Assembly (NCBI RefSeq): GCF_000331245.1
Contig: NZ_ANFZ01000006.1
Coordinates: 558,001-622,000 of the forward strand
DNA: 64,000 nucleotides
Direction of reading: 5' to 3'
Source of the DNA: Blastomonas sp. AAP53
GTDB lineage: Bacteria; Pseudomonadota; Alphaproteobacteria; Sphingomonadales; Sphingomonadaceae
Shown: one piece after another, positions 37,840 through 56,516 of the stretch
Numbering within the stretch: the stretch's first letter is position 1
Layout: each line of letters starts with the position of its first letter
Position numbers and translations under genes: made by a program
The notes under the pieces: model-generated
The model's input: the letters and a program-made list of their open reading frames with translations, nothing else
Databases searched by the model: none
Told to the model about the DNA's origin: nothing

Positions 37840-38718
37840 ATGACGCAGCTCATGCCGCATGCGGCTTGCAATCATTGCGGATCGCGCGACGCGCGTCTGG
37901 CTGCGCGGGTGGATGGCTATACGCTGGTGCGGTGCGTTGCTTGTGACCTGGCATTTGTGGCCGACCCGCCATCGCCCGAGCGGCTTTCAGCGCTGTACCA
38001 AGCCAGCAACGAATATCACAGGACGCTGCACGACCCTGCCAGCGGCGATTATGCGCGGATGGCCAAAGTCGCGTGCGAGCATCTGGCCTTTGTGCGCCGC
38101 TGGGCATCGGGCGGCAGGCTTGTCGATGTGGGCTGTTCAACAGGGCTGTTCCTCAACGAGGCGCTGCGCGTGGGCTTTGATGTGTCCGGCGTCGAATTTT
38201 CCGCCACATCCGCACAGTTCGCCCGTGATCAATTCGGTATTCGTGTGATTGATGGCGATATCCACGCGCTGGACCCCGCACCCGAAAGCCTGGATATCCT
38301 GACGATGTTCGACGTCATCGAGCATGTCCGCGACCCTGCAAGCGATATCGCGGCAGCGTACCGCATGCTCAAGCCTGGCGGATTGTTCATCGTCTCCACG
38401 CCGAACATCGACGGGCTTTTCCCCAGGGCGTCCGAACCCCTGGCCGGGTTGCTTGGACACTGGCCGCATCCCGAACCGCCCTGGCATCTCTACCAGTTCT
38501 CGGTCCGCACCCTATCCAATATGCTGAAAAAGCAGGGATTTGCGCCATTGGGTACGCAGCACACCGCCATCGATCTTGCCTATAGCTTTGGAACGCTGCG
38601 CGACCTGCGGCGCAGCCCCAAAAGGCTGGCCTATGCACTTGCCTTCGCCCCGCTCGCCTGGGCCGGCCCTAAGATCGGCATGGGCGACTGGTTCTATCTG
38701 GCCGCGCGCAAAACCTGA
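37840..38718 (+). CDS. Class I SAM methyltransferase with N-terminal zinc ribbon
   Basis: 292 residues. N-terminal CNHCGSRDARL and VRCVACDLAFV form a four-Cys zinc ribbon, common in methyltransferases acting on sugar nucleotides or surface glycans. SAM motif I is VDVGCSTGLFLNEAL near 91-105, and DILTMFDVIEHVRDP near 148 is the acidic motif (Methyltransf_23-like). The C-terminal third is hydrophobic and basic, perhaps membrane-associated. It forms a divergent pair with the GNAT gene and converges with the DUF1989 gene. Confidence 0.88.
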   Translation: MTQLMPHAACNHCGSRDARLAARVDGYTLVRCVACDLAFVADPPSPERLSALYQASNEYHRTLHDPASGDYARMAKVACEHLAFVRRWASGGRLVDVGCSTGLFLNEALRVGFDVSGVEFSATSAQFARDQFGIRVIDGDIHALDPAPESLDILTMFDVIEHVRDPASDIAAAYRMLKPGGLFIVSTPNIDGLFPRASEPLAGLLGHWPHPEPPWHLYQFSVRTLSNMLKKQGFAPLGTQHTAIDLAYSFGTLRDLRRSPKRLAYALAFAPLAWAGPKIGMGDWFYLAARKT

Positions 38719-38721
38719 TGC

Positions 38722-39306
38722 TCAGCCGCTGATTTCATAGGCGATCGGCTTGAACGATCCGTTGTTCGATTGCAGGGCGGAGCAAGCGGTCAGACCGATG
38801 ATCAGATCCATGTGCGCCACGAATCGGATGCTGTCGCCCGCCTTGCTCAGCGGAGGATCCACGCGCAGCTCGCCGGTCGTGCCATCGACGGGCACGTTCA
38901 TGAAGCAGTTGAACGCCACCGGAATCATGTCCGGCGTGACGCCATAGGGCTCCAGCGCCGCGACCAGATTGCCGAAACACCCCCGGTGCGGGTCGGTATC
39001 GCCATAGATGATGCGGAACGTGTCTTTGGAGCAGGGTGTCAACAGGAAGTCATGCCGTCCGACATCATCGGCGACGATCTCCAGCATCACCTCCGAGCGG
39101 TTGGAATAGAGCGTATCGCCGGTGCTCAGATAGATGCGGCTGGCATAATCGAGCGTCCGCCCGGACGAGATCACCTCGCCGATGTCATGCGCATTGAACG
39201 CGAGCAGATCAGCGACCTGTTCTCCCCGAACATCGGTGACCGTCAGCGTCTGCCCTTTGGCCAGCATGAATGCCGTGCCGGAACGCGGCGGAATTTCACA
39301 GGGCAT
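38722..39306 (-). CDS. DUF1989 (urea carboxylase-associated) family protein
   Basis: 194 residues from ATG 39306, overlapping the end of the upstream gene by 11 bases. Typical DUF1989 sequence: KGQTLTVTDVRGEQVADLLAFN near the start, CSKDTFRIIYGD then HRGCFGNL, FNCFMNVPVDGTTGELRVDPP, and C-terminal LIIGLTACSA. The fold is cupin-like; relatives accompany urea carboxylase or amidolyase genes and have been linked to nitrogen-compound metabolism, without a settled reaction. No urea carboxylase is nearby here; the partner is a YqcI/YcgG protein. Confidence 0.9.
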   Translation of the reverse strand: MPCEIPPRSGTAFMLAKGQTLTVTDVRGEQVADLLAFNAHDIGEVISSGRTLDYASRIYLSTGDTLYSNRSEVMLEIVADDVGRHDFLLTPCSKDTFRIIYGDTDPHRGCFGNLVAALEPYGVTPDMIPVAFNCFMNVPVDGTTGELRVDPPLSKAGDSIRFVAHMDLIIGLTACSALQSNNGSFKPIAYEISG

Positions 39307-39991
39307 ATTCGACGCTCTTTCTGGGCTTGAGGGGACACTGCCATCGTTCATCGACAACGCGTCCGCTGTACTGCCTGGCTTCGGATAGTGTGCCGTGCTT
39401 GGCCAGCATGGGGTTGATGTTCCCCGCCAGCGCAATATCGCGGTCGAGGATCGTGCCACGCATCTTGTCATACACGCCCGACGCGCGCAGTTGCTCGAAC
39501 TGGTCGTGCAGATTGAACACGATCACGGGCCGATCAAACCGGCGTGCCGGACGGCTGGCACCAGGGTGCAGCCCGACCACGAAAAAGGCCTCGCCGCCGA
39601 AGCTGAGCGAAAAATGCGGATCGTTGGGATCGGAGCTGACACGCGGATCGACCGGCTGGCCGAGCCAGTCGTCCTTGTCGCTCAATGACTGCAGCCGTTC
39701 CCAGAGATGCCGCTCGAATGTTGCCTCGTCCAGGCCGGCATCTTCCTCGAACACCACTGCCAGCGACTGGAATGGCGTCGGATCGACCGCATAATCCTGC
39801 GCGATGTCGAGCAGGGCGGGGTGGATGCGCAGATCATCCCAGGCCGACCGCAGATCGCGTCCCACGATGATGCGCATGTTGCCCTTGGCCAGCGCGGATT
39901 TGGCGCCGACACAGGGAAAATTGCGGTCCTGAATGAATTCGCGAAACCGCTTTGCCAGCGGGTTGTCGTGGGTCGTTTTCGATGTCGTCAT
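39296..39991 (-). CDS. YqcI/YcgG family protein, candidate heme-dependent N-oxygenase
   Basis: 231 residues from ATG 39991. Family signatures: FPCVGAKSAL near 25-34 and the block GLHPGASRPARRFDRP at about 140-155 followed by FNLHDQFEQLR. This family includes characterised heme-dependent enzymes that N-oxygenate amino acids such as arginine or lysine (for example GntA in guanitoxin synthesis, AglA, BelK/HrmI), with His in the GxHP motif (here His142) a candidate heme ligand. The substrate here cannot be read from sequence. It starts 7 bases after the UdgX gene and overlaps the DUF1989 gene, so the four genes probably share one transcript. Confidence 0.85.
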   Translation of the reverse strand: MTTSKTTHDNPLAKRFREFIQDRNFPCVGAKSALAKGNMRIIVGRDLRSAWDDLRIHPALLDIAQDYAVDPTPFQSLAVVFEEDAGLDEATFERHLWERLQSLSDKDDWLGQPVDPRVSSDPNDPHFSLSFGGEAFFVVGLHPGASRPARRFDRPVIVFNLHDQFEQLRASGVYDKMRGTILDRDIALAGNINPMLAKHGTLSEARQYSGRVVDERWQCPLKPRKSVEYAL

Positions 39992-39998
39992 GGCAGGG

Positions 39999-41474
39999 TT
40001 ACGCAAATCCGGCGTTGGGGTTGCCGTGCGTGTTCGGCAAACTTTCGGCCATCGCTTTGGCGCGTGCCAGATCGGCAATGAAAGCGCGCCGTTCGATTGC
40101 CGCACGCTCCTGGTCGGGCAGCCGCAACAGGTAGGACGGATGCACCGTCGCGATCAGCTGCGCGCCGCCTTCGAGCGCGTGGACCTTGCCCCGCATCGAA
40201 CTGATGCTGGGGCTTTTGCCGGTGATACCACGCAGCGCGCTGCCCCCCAGCGAGACGATGATGTCGGGCTGCACAAGCGCGCGCTCCTGGTCGAGCCACC
40301 AGCGGCAGATGTCGATCTCGCCGGTGTTGGGGTTCTGGTGGAGGCGGCGCTTGCCGCGCGGTTCGAACTTGAAATGCTTCACCGCATTGGTGACGTACAG
40401 CGTCGCACGGTCGAGCCCCGCTTCGGCCAGGGCCTCGTCGAGCAGCTGGCCTGCGGGGCCCACAAACGGGCGTCCTTCCAGATCCTCGCGATCACCGGGC
40501 TGTTCGCCCACCAGCATGATACGCGCATCCGCGCGGCCTTCGCCCGGCACCGGCTGGGTTGCATGGCAATGCAGCGGGCAGCGGGTGCAGCCCTTCAGCG
40601 CTGCCGAGATATCCTCGAGCGAACGGATTGCATCGCCGGGCTCCGCATCCTGGGCCACGCCGCGAACGCGCCATTTGTCGCTGCGGGGATTGGCGAGCGA
40701 AACTGCGGTTTCGCGCATCTTGTCCACCCGCGCCGCGGCGCCTGCCAGCAACGGCGCGATGTCCTGCGCCTCGGGCAGATTGTGCCAGTATTTCTTGGGC
40801 ATTTCCGCGCGCATGGCGGCAATCTTGACCCGCGCGGGGTTGAAGATCGCGCCGTAATAGGTGCGCCATTGATCCTCGACGATATCCCGGTCGGGAACCT
40901 CGTCGCGTGTCCCGGCAGGACCGAAGCTCAATTCTTCCGACTGCCAGATCGCGCGCGCATCTGGAGTCAGGATCGCCCAGTCCATGCCGTAGAACCGCTT
41001 GCGAAAGAACGGCGCGGCGAGGCGCAATATGCGGTGCTCGGGCTCGAACCAGGCCACATAGGATTCGCGATCCGCCTCGCTGCCGCCCAGGCGGCGGAAG
41101 CGGACAAAGGCGTGCATCTTGTGCAGGTCGCGCCGGATCGCCTTGTCCATCTTGGCGAGCCAGTCGACATCCGGATCGGTGCGCCGCTCGAGCAGCCGTC
41201 GGTCATCGAGCGCGCGCCAGACGACGCGATAAAGCCTCGACGGTACGGCAGGATCACGATGGCAGATGACCCGGTCGGCGATCGTCACCAGTTCGCGGGG
41301 AAGGGTGATAGTGCGTTTGGGGTCAAGATTGGCGCTATCCGCAAACAAGGACCCGCTTTCCCCCGCGTGCCGCCACAGCACCTCTTGCGGCGGCACGCCG
41401 GCTGCCAGCAGCGGTCGCGCCGCGCTGCGCCATTCGGTAAAATCGCCGGGATTGTGAAGCGTAACCTCGCGCAT
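39999..41474 (-). CDS. udgX: DUF4130-UdgX fusion: uracil-DNA binding/glycosylase-like protein
   Basis: 491 residues, two parts. Residues about 1-265 are a DUF4130 / TIGR03915-type domain (DLHKMHAFVRFRR, FEPEHRILRLAAPFF, RTYYGAIFNPARVKIAAMR, PKKYWHNLPEA). Residues about 285-491 are a UDG-superfamily domain of the UdgX type. It has the Fe-S cysteines Cys296 and Cys299 (CTRCPL), the active-site loop GEQPGD at 323-328, and the UdgX-specific insertion with KRRLHQNP at 375-382 containing His379. The C-terminal motif is HPSYLLR. In mycobacterial UdgX the equivalent His bonds covalently to the uracil-excised DNA site. Co-transcribed with the radical SAM gene 10 bases upstream. Confidence 0.93.
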   Translation of the reverse strand: MREVTLHNPGDFTEWRSAARPLLAAGVPPQEVLWRHAGESGSLFADSANLDPKRTITLPRELVTIADRVICHRDPAVPSRLYRVVWRALDDRRLLERRTDPDVDWLAKMDKAIRRDLHKMHAFVRFRRLGGSEADRESYVAWFEPEHRILRLAAPFFRKRFYGMDWAILTPDARAIWQSEELSFGPAGTRDEVPDRDIVEDQWRTYYGAIFNPARVKIAAMRAEMPKKYWHNLPEAQDIAPLLAGAAARVDKMRETAVSLANPRSDKWRVRGVAQDAEPGDAIRSLEDISAALKGCTRCPLHCHATQPVPGEGRADARIMLVGEQPGDREDLEGRPFVGPAGQLLDEALAEAGLDRATLYVTNAVKHFKFEPRGKRRLHQNPNTGEIDICRWWLDQERALVQPDIIVSLGGSALRGITGKSPSISSMRGKVHALEGGAQLIATVHPSYLLRLPDQERAAIERRAFIADLARAKAMAESLPNTHGNPNAGFA

Positions 41475-41484
41475 GATCGCCGCC

Positions 41485-42735
41485 CTAGAACGCCAGGCTC
41501 ATCTGCTCGGGTGGCGGGGCGAAGCGCGCGCGCAGGTTGGCGCTGTCGGTCAGCCCGCCGGGCCGCCAGTCGGGCGTCGTGACGAAGGGCAGTACCTTCT
41601 TCACCGACGCGGTCAGCTTGGCCAGATCGCCGATGCGCACCGCGCCCAGCCGCCGTGCCGATAGGATCCGCTCGACCGCCTTCGTGCCCAGCCCGGGCAC
41701 CCGCAAGAGCATCTCGCGCGGTGCCCGGTTGATATCGACCGGAAAGGATTCGCGTCGCTGCAACGCCCAGGCAAGCTTGGGGTCGATCGTCAGATCGAGC
41801 ATCCCGTCCTGCGCGCCGATCATGATTTCCTCGCGCGCAAACCCATAAAAACGCAGCAGCCAGTCAGCCTGGTACAATCGGTGTTCGCGCATCAGCGGCG
41901 GACGCACCGGGGGCAGATCGCTGCTGGCATCGGGAATAGGGCTATAGGCCGAATAATAGACCCGGCGCAGGCGATAGCCCGAATACAGGCTGGTGGCCGA
42001 TTGCAGGATATCGTTGTCGCGTGCGCTGTCTGCCCCCACGATCATCTGTGTCGACTGACCTGCGGGCGCGAAACGCGGGGGTTTGGCCTTGCGGAGCAGG
42101 CGACCCTTGCGTGCATCGGCGGCATCGTCCAGCCCGACGCGAACCCCCGCCATCGTCTTGCGGATGGTCGCGGAGGTCTTTTCGGGCGCGAAGCTCTTGA
42201 GCCCTTCCTCGGTCGGCAGTTCGACATTGGTGGACAGCCGGTCAGCATACAGGCCCGCGCGGGCAATCAGTTCGGGTGAGGCGCCCGCGATCGTCTTGAG
42301 GTGGATATAGCCCTGAAAGCGATGCTCTTCGCGCAACAGTCGCGCGACTTCGATCAACTGCTCCATCGTGTAATCCTCTGACCGGATGATGCCCGATGAG
42401 AGGAACAGCCCTTCGATATAATTGCGCTTGTAGAAATCCAGCGTCAGGCGGACCACCTCTGCCGGGTTGAACCGCGCGCGCGGCACGTTGCTCGAGGCGC
42501 GATTGATGCAAAAACGGCAGTCGTAGATGCAGAAGTTGGTGAGCAGGATCTTGAGCAGCGATATGCAGCGGCCATCGGGCGCATAGCTGTGGCAGATGCC
42601 CATGCCGCCCGTCGATCCGATCCCCTTGGTGCCGGTCGAATCGCGTTTGATCGTGCCCGACGACGCGCAGGATGCATCATATTTCGCCGCATCGGCGAGC
42701 ACGGCCAGTTTTTCCAGAATCGGTTTTTCGCTCAT
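41485..42735 (-). CDS. Putative DNA modification/repair radical SAM protein
   Basis: 416 residues from ATG 42735 (MSEKPILEKL). Radical SAM motif C69-x3-C73-x2-C76 in NFCIYDCRFCINRASSN. Downstream regions FLSSGIIRSEDYTMEQL and GYIHLKTIAG fit a TIM-barrel. The C-terminus has helix-hairpin-helix DNA-binding motifs (PREMLLRVPGLGTKAVERILSARR near 360). This is the TIGR03916 family, which is almost always encoded next to the DUF4130-UdgX protein, as here. The reaction is unknown; DNA repair or modification is assumed from the HhH and partner. Confidence 0.92.
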   Translation of the reverse strand: MSEKPILEKLAVLADAAKYDASCASSGTIKRDSTGTKGIGSTGGMGICHSYAPDGRCISLLKILLTNFCIYDCRFCINRASSNVPRARFNPAEVVRLTLDFYKRNYIEGLFLSSGIIRSEDYTMEQLIEVARLLREEHRFQGYIHLKTIAGASPELIARAGLYADRLSTNVELPTEEGLKSFAPEKTSATIRKTMAGVRVGLDDAADARKGRLLRKAKPPRFAPAGQSTQMIVGADSARDNDILQSATSLYSGYRLRRVYYSAYSPIPDASSDLPPVRPPLMREHRLYQADWLLRFYGFAREEIMIGAQDGMLDLTIDPKLAWALQRRESFPVDINRAPREMLLRVPGLGTKAVERILSARRLGAVRIGDLAKLTASVKKVLPFVTTPDWRPGGLTDSANLRARFAPPPEQMSLAF

Positions 42736-42839
42736 GAACCCGATATAGGCCATGGAACAAAGAAAGAACAGAGGCTTATGCCGCCTCGGCGCTCCATCCA
42801 CCCCGGATCGGCCGGGAGGACGGGGTGCGGCCTAGAGCC

Positions 42840-43676
42840 CTATTTGCGGATGAACGCCAGAATATCGGCGTTGACGGTATCGGCATTCACCGTGAGCATG
42901 CCGTGCGACAGGCCTTCATAGATCTTCAGCTCGCAATCCGGGAGCAGGTCGGCCTGCAGCAGCGCTGCGTTCTGGTAGGGCACCACCTGGTCGTCATCGC
43001 CGTGCAGCACCAGCGTGGGCACCGTCATCGCCTTCAAATCTTCGGTCTGGTCGGTTTCGGAAAAGGCCTTGATGCCTTCGTAATGCGCCTTGGCGCTGCC
43101 TATCATCCCCTGCCGCCACCAGTTTTCGACCACCGCTTCATCAGGTTCCGAATCTTCGCGGTTGAAGCCGTAGAACGGGCCCGAGGCGACATCGCGGAAA
43201 AATGTGGCGCGGTTGGCGGCCAGCGCGCTGCGGAAGCCATCGAACACATTCATGTCGAGCCCGCCCGGATAGCGATCTGTCTTCACCATGATCGGCGGCA
43301 CGGCAGCGACCAGCACCGCCTTGGCGACGCGCCCCTGCGGAATGCCATGCTGGGCGACATAGCGTGCAGCCTCGCCGCCGCCGGTCGAATGGCCAATATG
43401 CACCGCATACTTGAGGTCGAGATGCGCCGCGACGGCTGCCGCATCGGCAGCATAATGATCCATGTCATGACCTTCGCTGACCTGCTCCGACCGACCATGG
43501 CCGCGTCGGTCATGCGCGACGACGCGAAAGCCGTGCTGCAGAAAGAACAGCATCTGCGCGTCCCAATCGTCGGACGACAGGGGCCAACCGTGATGGAACA
43601 CGATCGGCTGGGCATCCTTGGGGCCCCAGTCCTTGAAGAAGATCTGCGTTCCATCGAATGAAGTGACATAGGCCAT
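42840..43676 (-). CDS. Alpha/beta hydrolase (non-heme haloperoxidase/esterase type)
   Basis: 278 residues. Oxyanion-hole HHGWPLSSDDW near 28-38, nucleophile Ser97 in GHSTGGGEAARY, acid Asp in HGDDDQVVP, and His in EGLSHGM near the C-terminus form a complete catalytic triad. Sequence and length match cofactor-free chloroperoxidase/arylesterase-like enzymes; physiological substrate unknown. It lies 104 bases upstream of the radical SAM gene on the same strand and may or may not share its transcript. Confidence 0.92.
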   Translation of the reverse strand: MAYVTSFDGTQIFFKDWGPKDAQPIVFHHGWPLSSDDWDAQMLFFLQHGFRVVAHDRRGHGRSEQVSEGHDMDHYAADAAAVAAHLDLKYAVHIGHSTGGGEAARYVAQHGIPQGRVAKAVLVAAVPPIMVKTDRYPGGLDMNVFDGFRSALAANRATFFRDVASGPFYGFNREDSEPDEAVVENWWRQGMIGSAKAHYEGIKAFSETDQTEDLKAMTVPTLVLHGDDDQVVPYQNAALLQADLLPDCELKIYEGLSHGMLTVNADTVNADILAFIRK

Positions 43677-54894: not shown

Positions 54895-55007
54895 GAGCAT
54901 TGTAGGGGCATCAGTTGTCCCCAGCGCGTAGGCGTTGCCCCATTGCCAAGCCACCGCCCGCGCTCTAGGTTCGCTTTTCGTTCCAATTTCATGCGCGGGA
55001 AGTTTCC

Positions 55008-56516
55008 ATGGACCTGTGGGTCGCAGTTCTCATCATTGTTGCCCTGATCGCAGGGCTCGCCATCGGCTGGTTCATCGGTGGCAAGCCCGTCACTGATGCA
55101 CGCGCTGAGCGCGAAGAGGCGCAAACCGCGCTCAAGGCGCTGCAGGAGCAGTTCAACGCCGCGATCCGCGATCTGGCAGGCACAAGCGAACGCGCGAAGC
55201 TGGCCGATGATCTGTCCTTGCGGCTGGAGGCGGTTCGCACGGACCATGCCGCGCTCTCGGGTCAGTTGGCTGCCGCTGCCGAACGTGCACGCCAGGCCGA
55301 TGATCTGGCCGCCCGGCTCGACACGCTGCGCGCAGAGCATGCCGCGTCCGCGCGCGAACTGGCGACGATGAAGGCGGATGCGGCCAATCACGAAAAGCAG
55401 GTGCGGCTGCTGGTGGAAGCGCGCGAACAGCTTTCGCAGCAGTTCGGCGAGGTCGGCAACAAGCTGTTGGGTGAGGCGCAGGAGGCGTTTTTGCGCCGCG
55501 CCAACGAGCGGTTCGCTCAGTCCGAGGAAAAGAACGAGGAGAAGATCCGCACGCTGCTTGCCCCGGTGGGAGAGCGGCTCAAGACCTATGAGGAGCAGGT
55601 CCAGAAGATCGAGGCGACCCGCAGCGAGGCCTATGGCACGCTGACCGGGCTGATCGAGCAGATGCGCGCCGGGCAGGACCGGGTGCAGGCCGAGGCCGCG
55701 CGGCTGGTCAACAGCTTGCGCAATGCTCCCAAGGCGCGCGGACGCTGGGGCGAGCAGCAGCTGCGCAACGTGCTCGAAAGCTGCGGGCTTGCCGAACGCA
55801 CCGATTTCGCGATGGAGGTCAGCCTGGATACCGAAGACGGGCGGCTGCGCCCCGATGCGGTGGTCAAGGTGCCCGGCGGGCGGTCGCTGGTGATCGATGC
55901 CAAGGTGTCGCTGAACGCCTATCAGGACGCATTCGGCGCGGATGACGATGGCGCGCGCAAGATCGCGCTCGCGGCGCACTGCGCTTCGATGAAGGCGCAT
56001 ATCGATGGCTTGTCGCGCAAAGCCTATTGGGACCAGTTTTCCGACGCGCCTGACTACGTGATCATGTTCGTCCCCGGCGAGCATTTCCTCTCGGCCGCGC
56101 TCGAGCATGACCCGTCGCTGTGGGACCATGCGTTCGACAAGAAGGTACTGCTGGCAACGCCGACCAACCTCGTTGCCATCGCGCGTACGGTGGCGAGCGT
56201 CTGGCGGCAGGAAGGGCTGGCGGCAGAGGCCAAGCAGATCGGCCAGCTGGGCAAGGAGCTCTACGACCGGCTCGCGGTCTCCGCCGAGCATTTGAAGCGC
56301 GTGGGATCAGGCCTGTCGAGCGCGGTCGGCCATTACAACAAGTTCGTCGGCAGCTTCGAACGCAACGTGCTCTCCACCGGTCGCAAGTTCGCCGCGCTCA
56401 ACATCGAGACCGGCAAGCGCGAACTGGAAACGATCGACGAGATCGAAGCGCTGCCGCGCTATGGCGACGCCGCGCTGATAGAGGCGGGAGAGGAAGTGAA
56501 GGACGCGGCGGAGTGA
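55008..56516 (+). CDS. rmuC: DNA recombination protein RmuC
   Basis: 502 residues. N-terminal membrane helix (about 4-25, VAVLIIVALIAGLAIGWFIGG), then a long coiled coil (about 30-200), then the RmuC nuclease-like domain: KARGRWGEQQLRNVLE near 245, VIDAKVSLNAYQDA near 297 and VMFVPGEHFLSAAL near 350. RmuC limits DNA inversions at short repeats in E. coli. Single-gene unit between def and an unrelated convergent gene. Confidence 0.94.
   Translation: MDLWVAVLIIVALIAGLAIGWFIGGKPVTDARAEREEAQTALKALQEQFNAAIRDLAGTSERAKLADDLSLRLEAVRTDHAALSGQLAAAAERARQADDLAARLDTLRAEHAASARELATMKADAANHEKQVRLLVEAREQLSQQFGEVGNKLLGEAQEAFLRRANERFAQSEEKNEEKIRTLLAPVGERLKTYEEQVQKIEATRSEAYGTLTGLIEQMRAGQDRVQAEAARLVNSLRNAPKARGRWGEQQLRNVLESCGLAERTDFAMEVSLDTEDGRLRPDAVVKVPGGRSLVIDAKVSLNAYQDAFGADDDGARKIALAAHCASMKAHIDGLSRKAYWDQFSDAPDYVIMFVPGEHFLSAALEHDPSLWDHAFDKKVLLATPTNLVAIARTVASVWRQEGLAAEAKQIGQLGKELYDRLAVSAEHLKRVGSGLSSAVGHYNKFVGSFERNVLSTGRKFAALNIETGKRELETIDEIEALPRYGDAALIEAGEEVKDAAE

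Follow-up and report, generated by a model that had tools for sequence, protein, structure and literature searches.

The four-gene run and its LexA box

Four consecutive open reading frames on the minus strand of Blastomonas sp. AAP53 form a compact run in the window, by which we mean the whole 64,000-nucleotide (nt) stretch of contig NZ_ANFZ01000006.1 that was analysed. The first encodes a TIGR03916 radical SAM protein (rSAM; 41485-42735), putatively involved in DNA modification or repair, and the second a fusion of DUF4130 (TIGR03915) and UdgX (TIGR03914) at 39999-41474. These are followed by a YqcI/YcgG family gene (39296-39991), whose product is a predicted AglA-like heme-thiolate guanidine N-hydroxylase, and by a DUF1989 gene (38722-39306), which encodes the dedicated partner of YqcI and a predicted zinc hydrolase. 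The junctions are, in this order, a 10-nt gap, a 7-nt gap and an 11-nt overlap, and the recomputed reading frames reproduce exactly the layout given by an earlier, sequence-only reading of this DNA. Its four family names were likewise confirmed by Pfam and NCBIfam profiles, with all scores over the cut-off: TIGR03916 at 563 bits (cut-off 343.5), TIGR03915 at 192 (112), TIGR03914 at 306 (190), PF08892 at 193 (27) and NF041366 'GntA' at 247 (145) for YqcI, and PF09347 at 198 (27) for DUF1989. The genome has a size of 3.6 Mb and holds one YqcI copy.

The rSAM protein carries the CX3CX2C motif, as FCIYDCRFC. UdgX hallmarks, as given in the consulted part of PMC10359453, are motif A GEQPG and the R-loop KRRIH; in the UdgX part of the fusion, motif A is present, the R-loop reads KRRLH with one conservative change, and motif B reads HPSYLLR, with Y where HPS(S/A)(L/V)(L/V)R has S or A. 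This part can be aligned to M. smegmatis-type UdgX structures. The structure model of YqcI shows the AglA fold with the invariant cysteine kept, and in DUF1989 Cys92, Cys110 and Cys175, which correspond to the zinc cysteines of this family, are invariant in 41 sequences. The suggestion that YqcI is an N-oxygenating enzyme is thus borne out at the level of family membership (profile score, fold and cysteine), and its activity as a heme-thiolate guanidine N-hydroxylase is predicted from the model.

A LexA (SOS) box, GTTCTTTCTTTGTTC, of the pattern GTTC-N7-GTTC, occupies positions 42755-42769 on the minus strand, 19 nt upstream of the rSAM start codon, and is the sole LexA-type box in the 38.7-42.8 kb of the window. 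The lexA gene of the same genome has the box GTTCCTTATTCGTTC upstream. All nine Blastomonas genomes carry a box 5' of rSAM (shuffle expectation 0.04). Outside the genus, 40 rSAM loci were examined, a subset of the 82 rSAM genomes in our order sample of 196 Sphingomonadales genomes; the motif is found no more than 250 nt upstream in 40/40 (shuffle expectation 0.34), at 0-4 or 18 nt before the start in 38 of them, and at 15/674 other genes of the YqcI loci. In 38600-43000 of the window, no sigma-70 promoter was detected; five terminator-like sites were predicted there, a small excess over the 2.5 in shuffles, and none lies at a junction. A further LexA-type box, GTTCGCTTTTCGTTC, occurs elsewhere in the window, at 54969-54983. 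An RmuC-family gene on the plus strand (55008-56516) begins 24 nt downstream of this box and may therefore belong to the SOS regulon of this genome.

The four-gene run is conserved in 9/9 Blastomonas genomes, those identified by name being Blastomonas natatoria DSM 3183, two Blastomonas sp. assemblies and Sphingomonas (Blastomonas) ursincola KR-99. The adjacency is thus not peculiar to one strain, yet no second genus with the grouping was found. With start codons set by homologous start, the rSAM-UdgX gap is 4-11 nt, the UdgX-YqcI gap 7-44 nt, and the YqcI-DUF1989 junction either an 11-nt overlap or a 10-nt spacing. Median ratios of nonsynonymous to synonymous substitution rates (dN/dS; 36 genome pairs) are 0.063 for rSAM, 0.182 for UdgX, 0.123 for YqcI and 0.104 for DUF1989; all four genes are under purifying selection in the genus. 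Given the genus-wide run, the 7-44 nt between the two pairs, the purifying selection, the LexA box in 9/9 genomes and the box at lexA, the four genes very probably form one SOS operon. We infer co-transcription, as the sequence-only reading had done, from the tight junctions in all nine genomes and from the only LexA-type box standing before the first gene.

The first half of this operon has precedents. An SOS-controlled two-gene operon with a uracil-DNA glycosylase (UDG) was described for Bacteroidetes and, by citation, for Verrucomicrobia and Alphaproteobacteria (PMC8565304), and a link to SOS was reported for DUF4130 together with radical SAM and UDG (PMC3765255). As far as the consulted sections of these reports go, the rSAM-UdgX pair and its SOS control are therefore already known, in keeping with the earlier description of a recognised pair.

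YqcI-DUF1989 as an independent module

At an identity of at least 50%, 50 YqcI copies occur in 46 of the 196 Sphingomonadales genomes, and DUF1989 is the next gene downstream, on the same strand and within 120 nt, for 44 of them. In a class sample of 289 genomes, nine have YqcI at 49% identity or more (G246 in two pieces). DUF1989 at 64% identity or more was found in exactly those nine, adjoining YqcI; the remaining DUF1989 matches, among the matches listed, do not exceed 39%. The pair is also present in 65/80 named loci. For a plasmid survey, 15 of 19 YqcI-bearing records were opened and one unannotated record was left out; DUF1989 adjoins YqcI in 12 of the resulting 14 (11 from their annotation and Hymenobacter through tblastn in two frames), including records from Comamonas, Deinococcus and Chryseobacterium, and no DUF1989 stands next to YqcI in the Streptomyces and Rahnella plasmid records. 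Beyond Alphaproteobacteria, the pair extends to Betaproteobacteria, Deinococcus and Bacteroidota, and its neighbourhoods vary among genera. YqcI-DUF1989 is an independent module.

Several of these neighbourhoods deserve description. In six of nine Sphingopyxis loci (L121, L124, L125, L132, L135, L136), YqcI has no DUF1989 directly behind it and is convergent to genes for cyanophycinase, an isoaspartyl-dipeptidase-like protein and cyanophycin synthetase. A TIGR04121 helicase gene follows the pair after 27 and 61 nt in two other genera (L077 6269-8719; L115 9084-11552). On a plasmid of Sphingomonas insulae (L249 5947-11379), a head-to-tail series of overlapping genes encodes YqcI, DUF1989, a TadA-like deaminase and a small HHH protein, followed by an Mfd-like helicase, and on a Chryseobacterium plasmid (L245 3992-8666) the pair adjoins ligD with cphA near, so that repair and cyanophycin contexts come together. 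Most plasmid YqcI genes are publicly annotated as gntA (guanitoxin biosynthesis), even where alphaproteobacterial copies are paired with DUF1989, which seems to stretch the name too far. No other gnt pathway gene was found in a scan limited to 8 proteins of the window.

Since the pair occurs in many different neighbourhoods, its landing sites look haphazard, and it could have arrived behind UdgX by chance, being only read through and gaining nothing from SOS control. We consider such hitchhiking unlikely, as the junctions are tight in 9/9 Blastomonas genomes despite a YqcI divergence to 74-77% identity, and the dN/dS of the pair is 0.10-0.12.

Outside Blastomonas, the module frequently has a promoter motif of its own. 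The pattern GGAAC-N16-18-GTT, which we take to be the EcfG general-stress promoter, precedes YqcI in 12/45 non-Blastomonas Sphingomonadales loci, as compared to 16/674 other genes there (Fisher 1.2e-8). With the named loci added, 44 matches were obtained in 121 YqcI upstream regions (antisense 10, shuffled 1.0), and after thinning at 80% YqcI identity the motif is retained in 24 of 77 non-redundant regions (antisense 4, shuffled 0.43). A spacer of 17 yields 13 matches and one of 18 yields 10; spacers of 12-16 and 19-22 yield 0-2 each.

The two pairs are also seldom neighbours. YqcI and rSAM lie within 7 kb on one contig in four order-sample genomes: two Blastomonas, G172, where 1.6 kb and an opposite-strand gene separate them and rSAM has its own LexA box, and G171, where they are 6.4 kb apart on different strands. 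Both pairs share one run only in the two Blastomonas genomes of this sample, and among the 80 named loci rSAM stands inside the 6-kb flanks in four, all Blastomonas. The LexA box is present, and YqcI behind UdgX absent, in the four genomes with the closest non-Blastomonas rSAM (84-87%), which, judging from where G119 falls in the YqcI tree, are probably Sphingopyxis. The co-occurrence survey proposed for Sphingomonadales thus places all four genes in one run in Blastomonas only, and no operon joining the module to rSAM-UdgX was detected outside this genus in the genomes examined.

These data bear on the idea that both pairs act in one pathway, in which a reactive N-oxygenated product of YqcI-DUF1989, hydroxylamine, hydroxyurea or the like, would harm bases or nucleotide pools, and rSAM-UdgX would repair the damage or protect the producer. 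The joint operon throughout the genus and the presence of rSAM in 44/46 YqcI genomes speak for it. A general functional bond is nevertheless not supported. Against it speak the separation of the pairs outside Blastomonas, the 38/82 rSAM genomes that have no YqcI at 50% identity or more (G118 among them has a weak YqcI), the 2/46 YqcI genomes without rSAM, the EcfG-type promoter that the module has in many other lineages, and neighbours of the pair that are mostly unrelated to DNA. Repair by the UdgX pair of damage from the second pair, as suggested in the sequence-only reading, therefore lacks support as a general rule and may still apply in Blastomonas. We keep the shared pathway as a rival, and an improbable one.

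Proposed capture of the module and its predicted chemistry

The explanation that we favour, with a little more confidence than doubt, is that of a single operon under LexA, formed when a known SOS repair pair gained a separate two-gene stress module downstream. The capture behind rSAM-UdgX would have happened once, in the Blastomonas ancestor; the Blastomonas YqcI proteins form a single clade (SH-aLRT 99 in a quick tree), which fits one capture. By analogy, the pair most likely N-hydroxylates and then hydrolyses an arginine-like guanidine. YqcI would use O2 and an external reductase to N-hydroxylate a guanidino substrate, most likely arginine, and DUF1989 would cleave the N-hydroxyguanidine at its zinc site, much as carboxyguanidine deiminase would, to yield a urea- or citrulline-type compound and ammonia or hydroxylamine. 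Both pairs would work in parallel in the damage response, presumably to the benefit of the cell, and a common substrate would not be required. The EcfG-type motif precedes YqcI in 0/9 Blastomonas genomes and the genome has a single YqcI copy, so in this genus the module has most likely exchanged general-stress control for control by DNA damage.

Several points weigh against this explanation. The missing EcfG-type motif in Blastomonas is one of them; 53 of the 77 upstream regions lack it as well, and the antisense matches (4/77) exceed the shuffle figure, so control of this type, as predicted from sequence, applies to part of the lineages only. Six of the 50 Sphingomonadales copies have no DUF1989 directly behind YqcI, which may therefore be able to work alone. 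Two terminator-like sites on the minus strand, 41972-41960 and 39603-39588, lie inside genes and could end transcripts early, and the proposed substrate and product of the pair are drawn from analogy. Single cases also favour the shared pathway: the TIGR04121 ligase-associated DNA damage response helicase directly downstream of the pair in G128 and G159, the TadA-like deaminase and Mfd-like helicase by the pair in Sphingomonas insulae, and LigD next to it in Chryseobacterium. Such repair neighbours may reflect a real bond between guanidine chemistry and DNA repair.

A catabolic role is a further alternative: the pair might serve nitrogen supply or detoxification by degrading free guanidine or methylguanidine, much as in the carboxyguanidine deiminase route. 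Carboxyguanidine deiminase belongs to the DUF1989 family (consulted part of PMC11271267), and the genome has two further DUF1989 genes, of UAAP1 and UAAP2 type, beside a biotin-dependent carboxylase and allophanate hydrolase at a second locus (G000:C6:364000-382000), with an ABC transporter alongside, by reading. Those catabolic genes are, however, at a separate place and only 26-29% identical to DUF1989 of the run; no transporter or carboxylase is conserved next to the pair, a guanidine riboswitch was found in 0/20 loci tested, and the promoters of the pair are EcfG- or LexA-type. We thus regard catabolism as quite unlikely. The run's DUF1989 was also considered as a CgdAB gene pair and rejected: the UAAP1/UAAP2 profiles TIGR03424 and TIGR03425 stay below cut-off (123.5 versus 284.7 and 81 versus 206 bits), and the carboxylase-adjacent pair is the other locus.

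A bolder reading, to which we give a similarly low probability, is that of a widespread bacterial stress effector. From arginine, YqcI-DUF1989 would make a small N-oxygenated product, be it hydroxyurea, hydroxylamine or a compound related to nitric oxide, and would thereby parallel nitric oxide synthase with a different small heme-thiolate fold. In Blastomonas, the SOS wiring would bring this product into the response to DNA damage, where it might, for instance, slow ribonucleotide reduction during DNA repair by rSAM-UdgX.

Of greater interest than the four-gene grouping is the module itself. The occurrence of the pair in several phyla, with stress promoters of EcfG type in many Alphaproteobacteria and of LexA type in Blastomonas, suggests that guanidine N-hydroxylation has a general role in physiology. 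The Blastomonas operon makes this idea testable, since the pair would be expected to respond to DNA damage, and cells without it to differ in survival or mutation. The operon would also be a clear case of a stress module that switches regulon by landing in another operon, and the data caution against a literal reading of the gntA name.

Relation to known systems

AglA, GntA, ChmN and DcsA are YqcI/YcgG heme guanidine N-oxygenases, and the consulted parts of the two reports treat these enzymes via natural-product pathways (PMC12866846, PMC10849742). YqcI of the run is only ~21% identical to AglA; no natural-product cluster was recognised around it, and what accompanies it is a stress promoter and a dedicated partner, DUF1989.

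The DUF1989 fold is common to our protein, to CgdAB and to the trimethylamine N-oxide demethylase Tdm, whose zinc cysteines are numbered in the part of PMC12560246 consulted; the three cysteines are similarly spaced, by 18 and 65 residues here and 16 and 64 in Tdm. The histidine three residues before the second cysteine (His107) is shared with CgdAB and Tdm. In contrast to CgdAB (UAAP1/UAAP2) and Tdm, DUF1989 is here a single gene without a GcvT domain, and its partner is a heme hydroxylase, whereas that of CgdAB is a carboxylase.

The rSAM-UdgX half of the operon is already known, and the YqcI-DUF1989 pair and its capture seem new. COG4277 is presumably the TIGR03916 protein. In the SOS operon of UDG and COG4277, as far as the consulted part of its report goes (PMC8565304), as in Blastomonas, a UDG-family gene and a second repair gene stand under LexA, and only in Blastomonas does YqcI-DUF1989 follow downstream in the same run.
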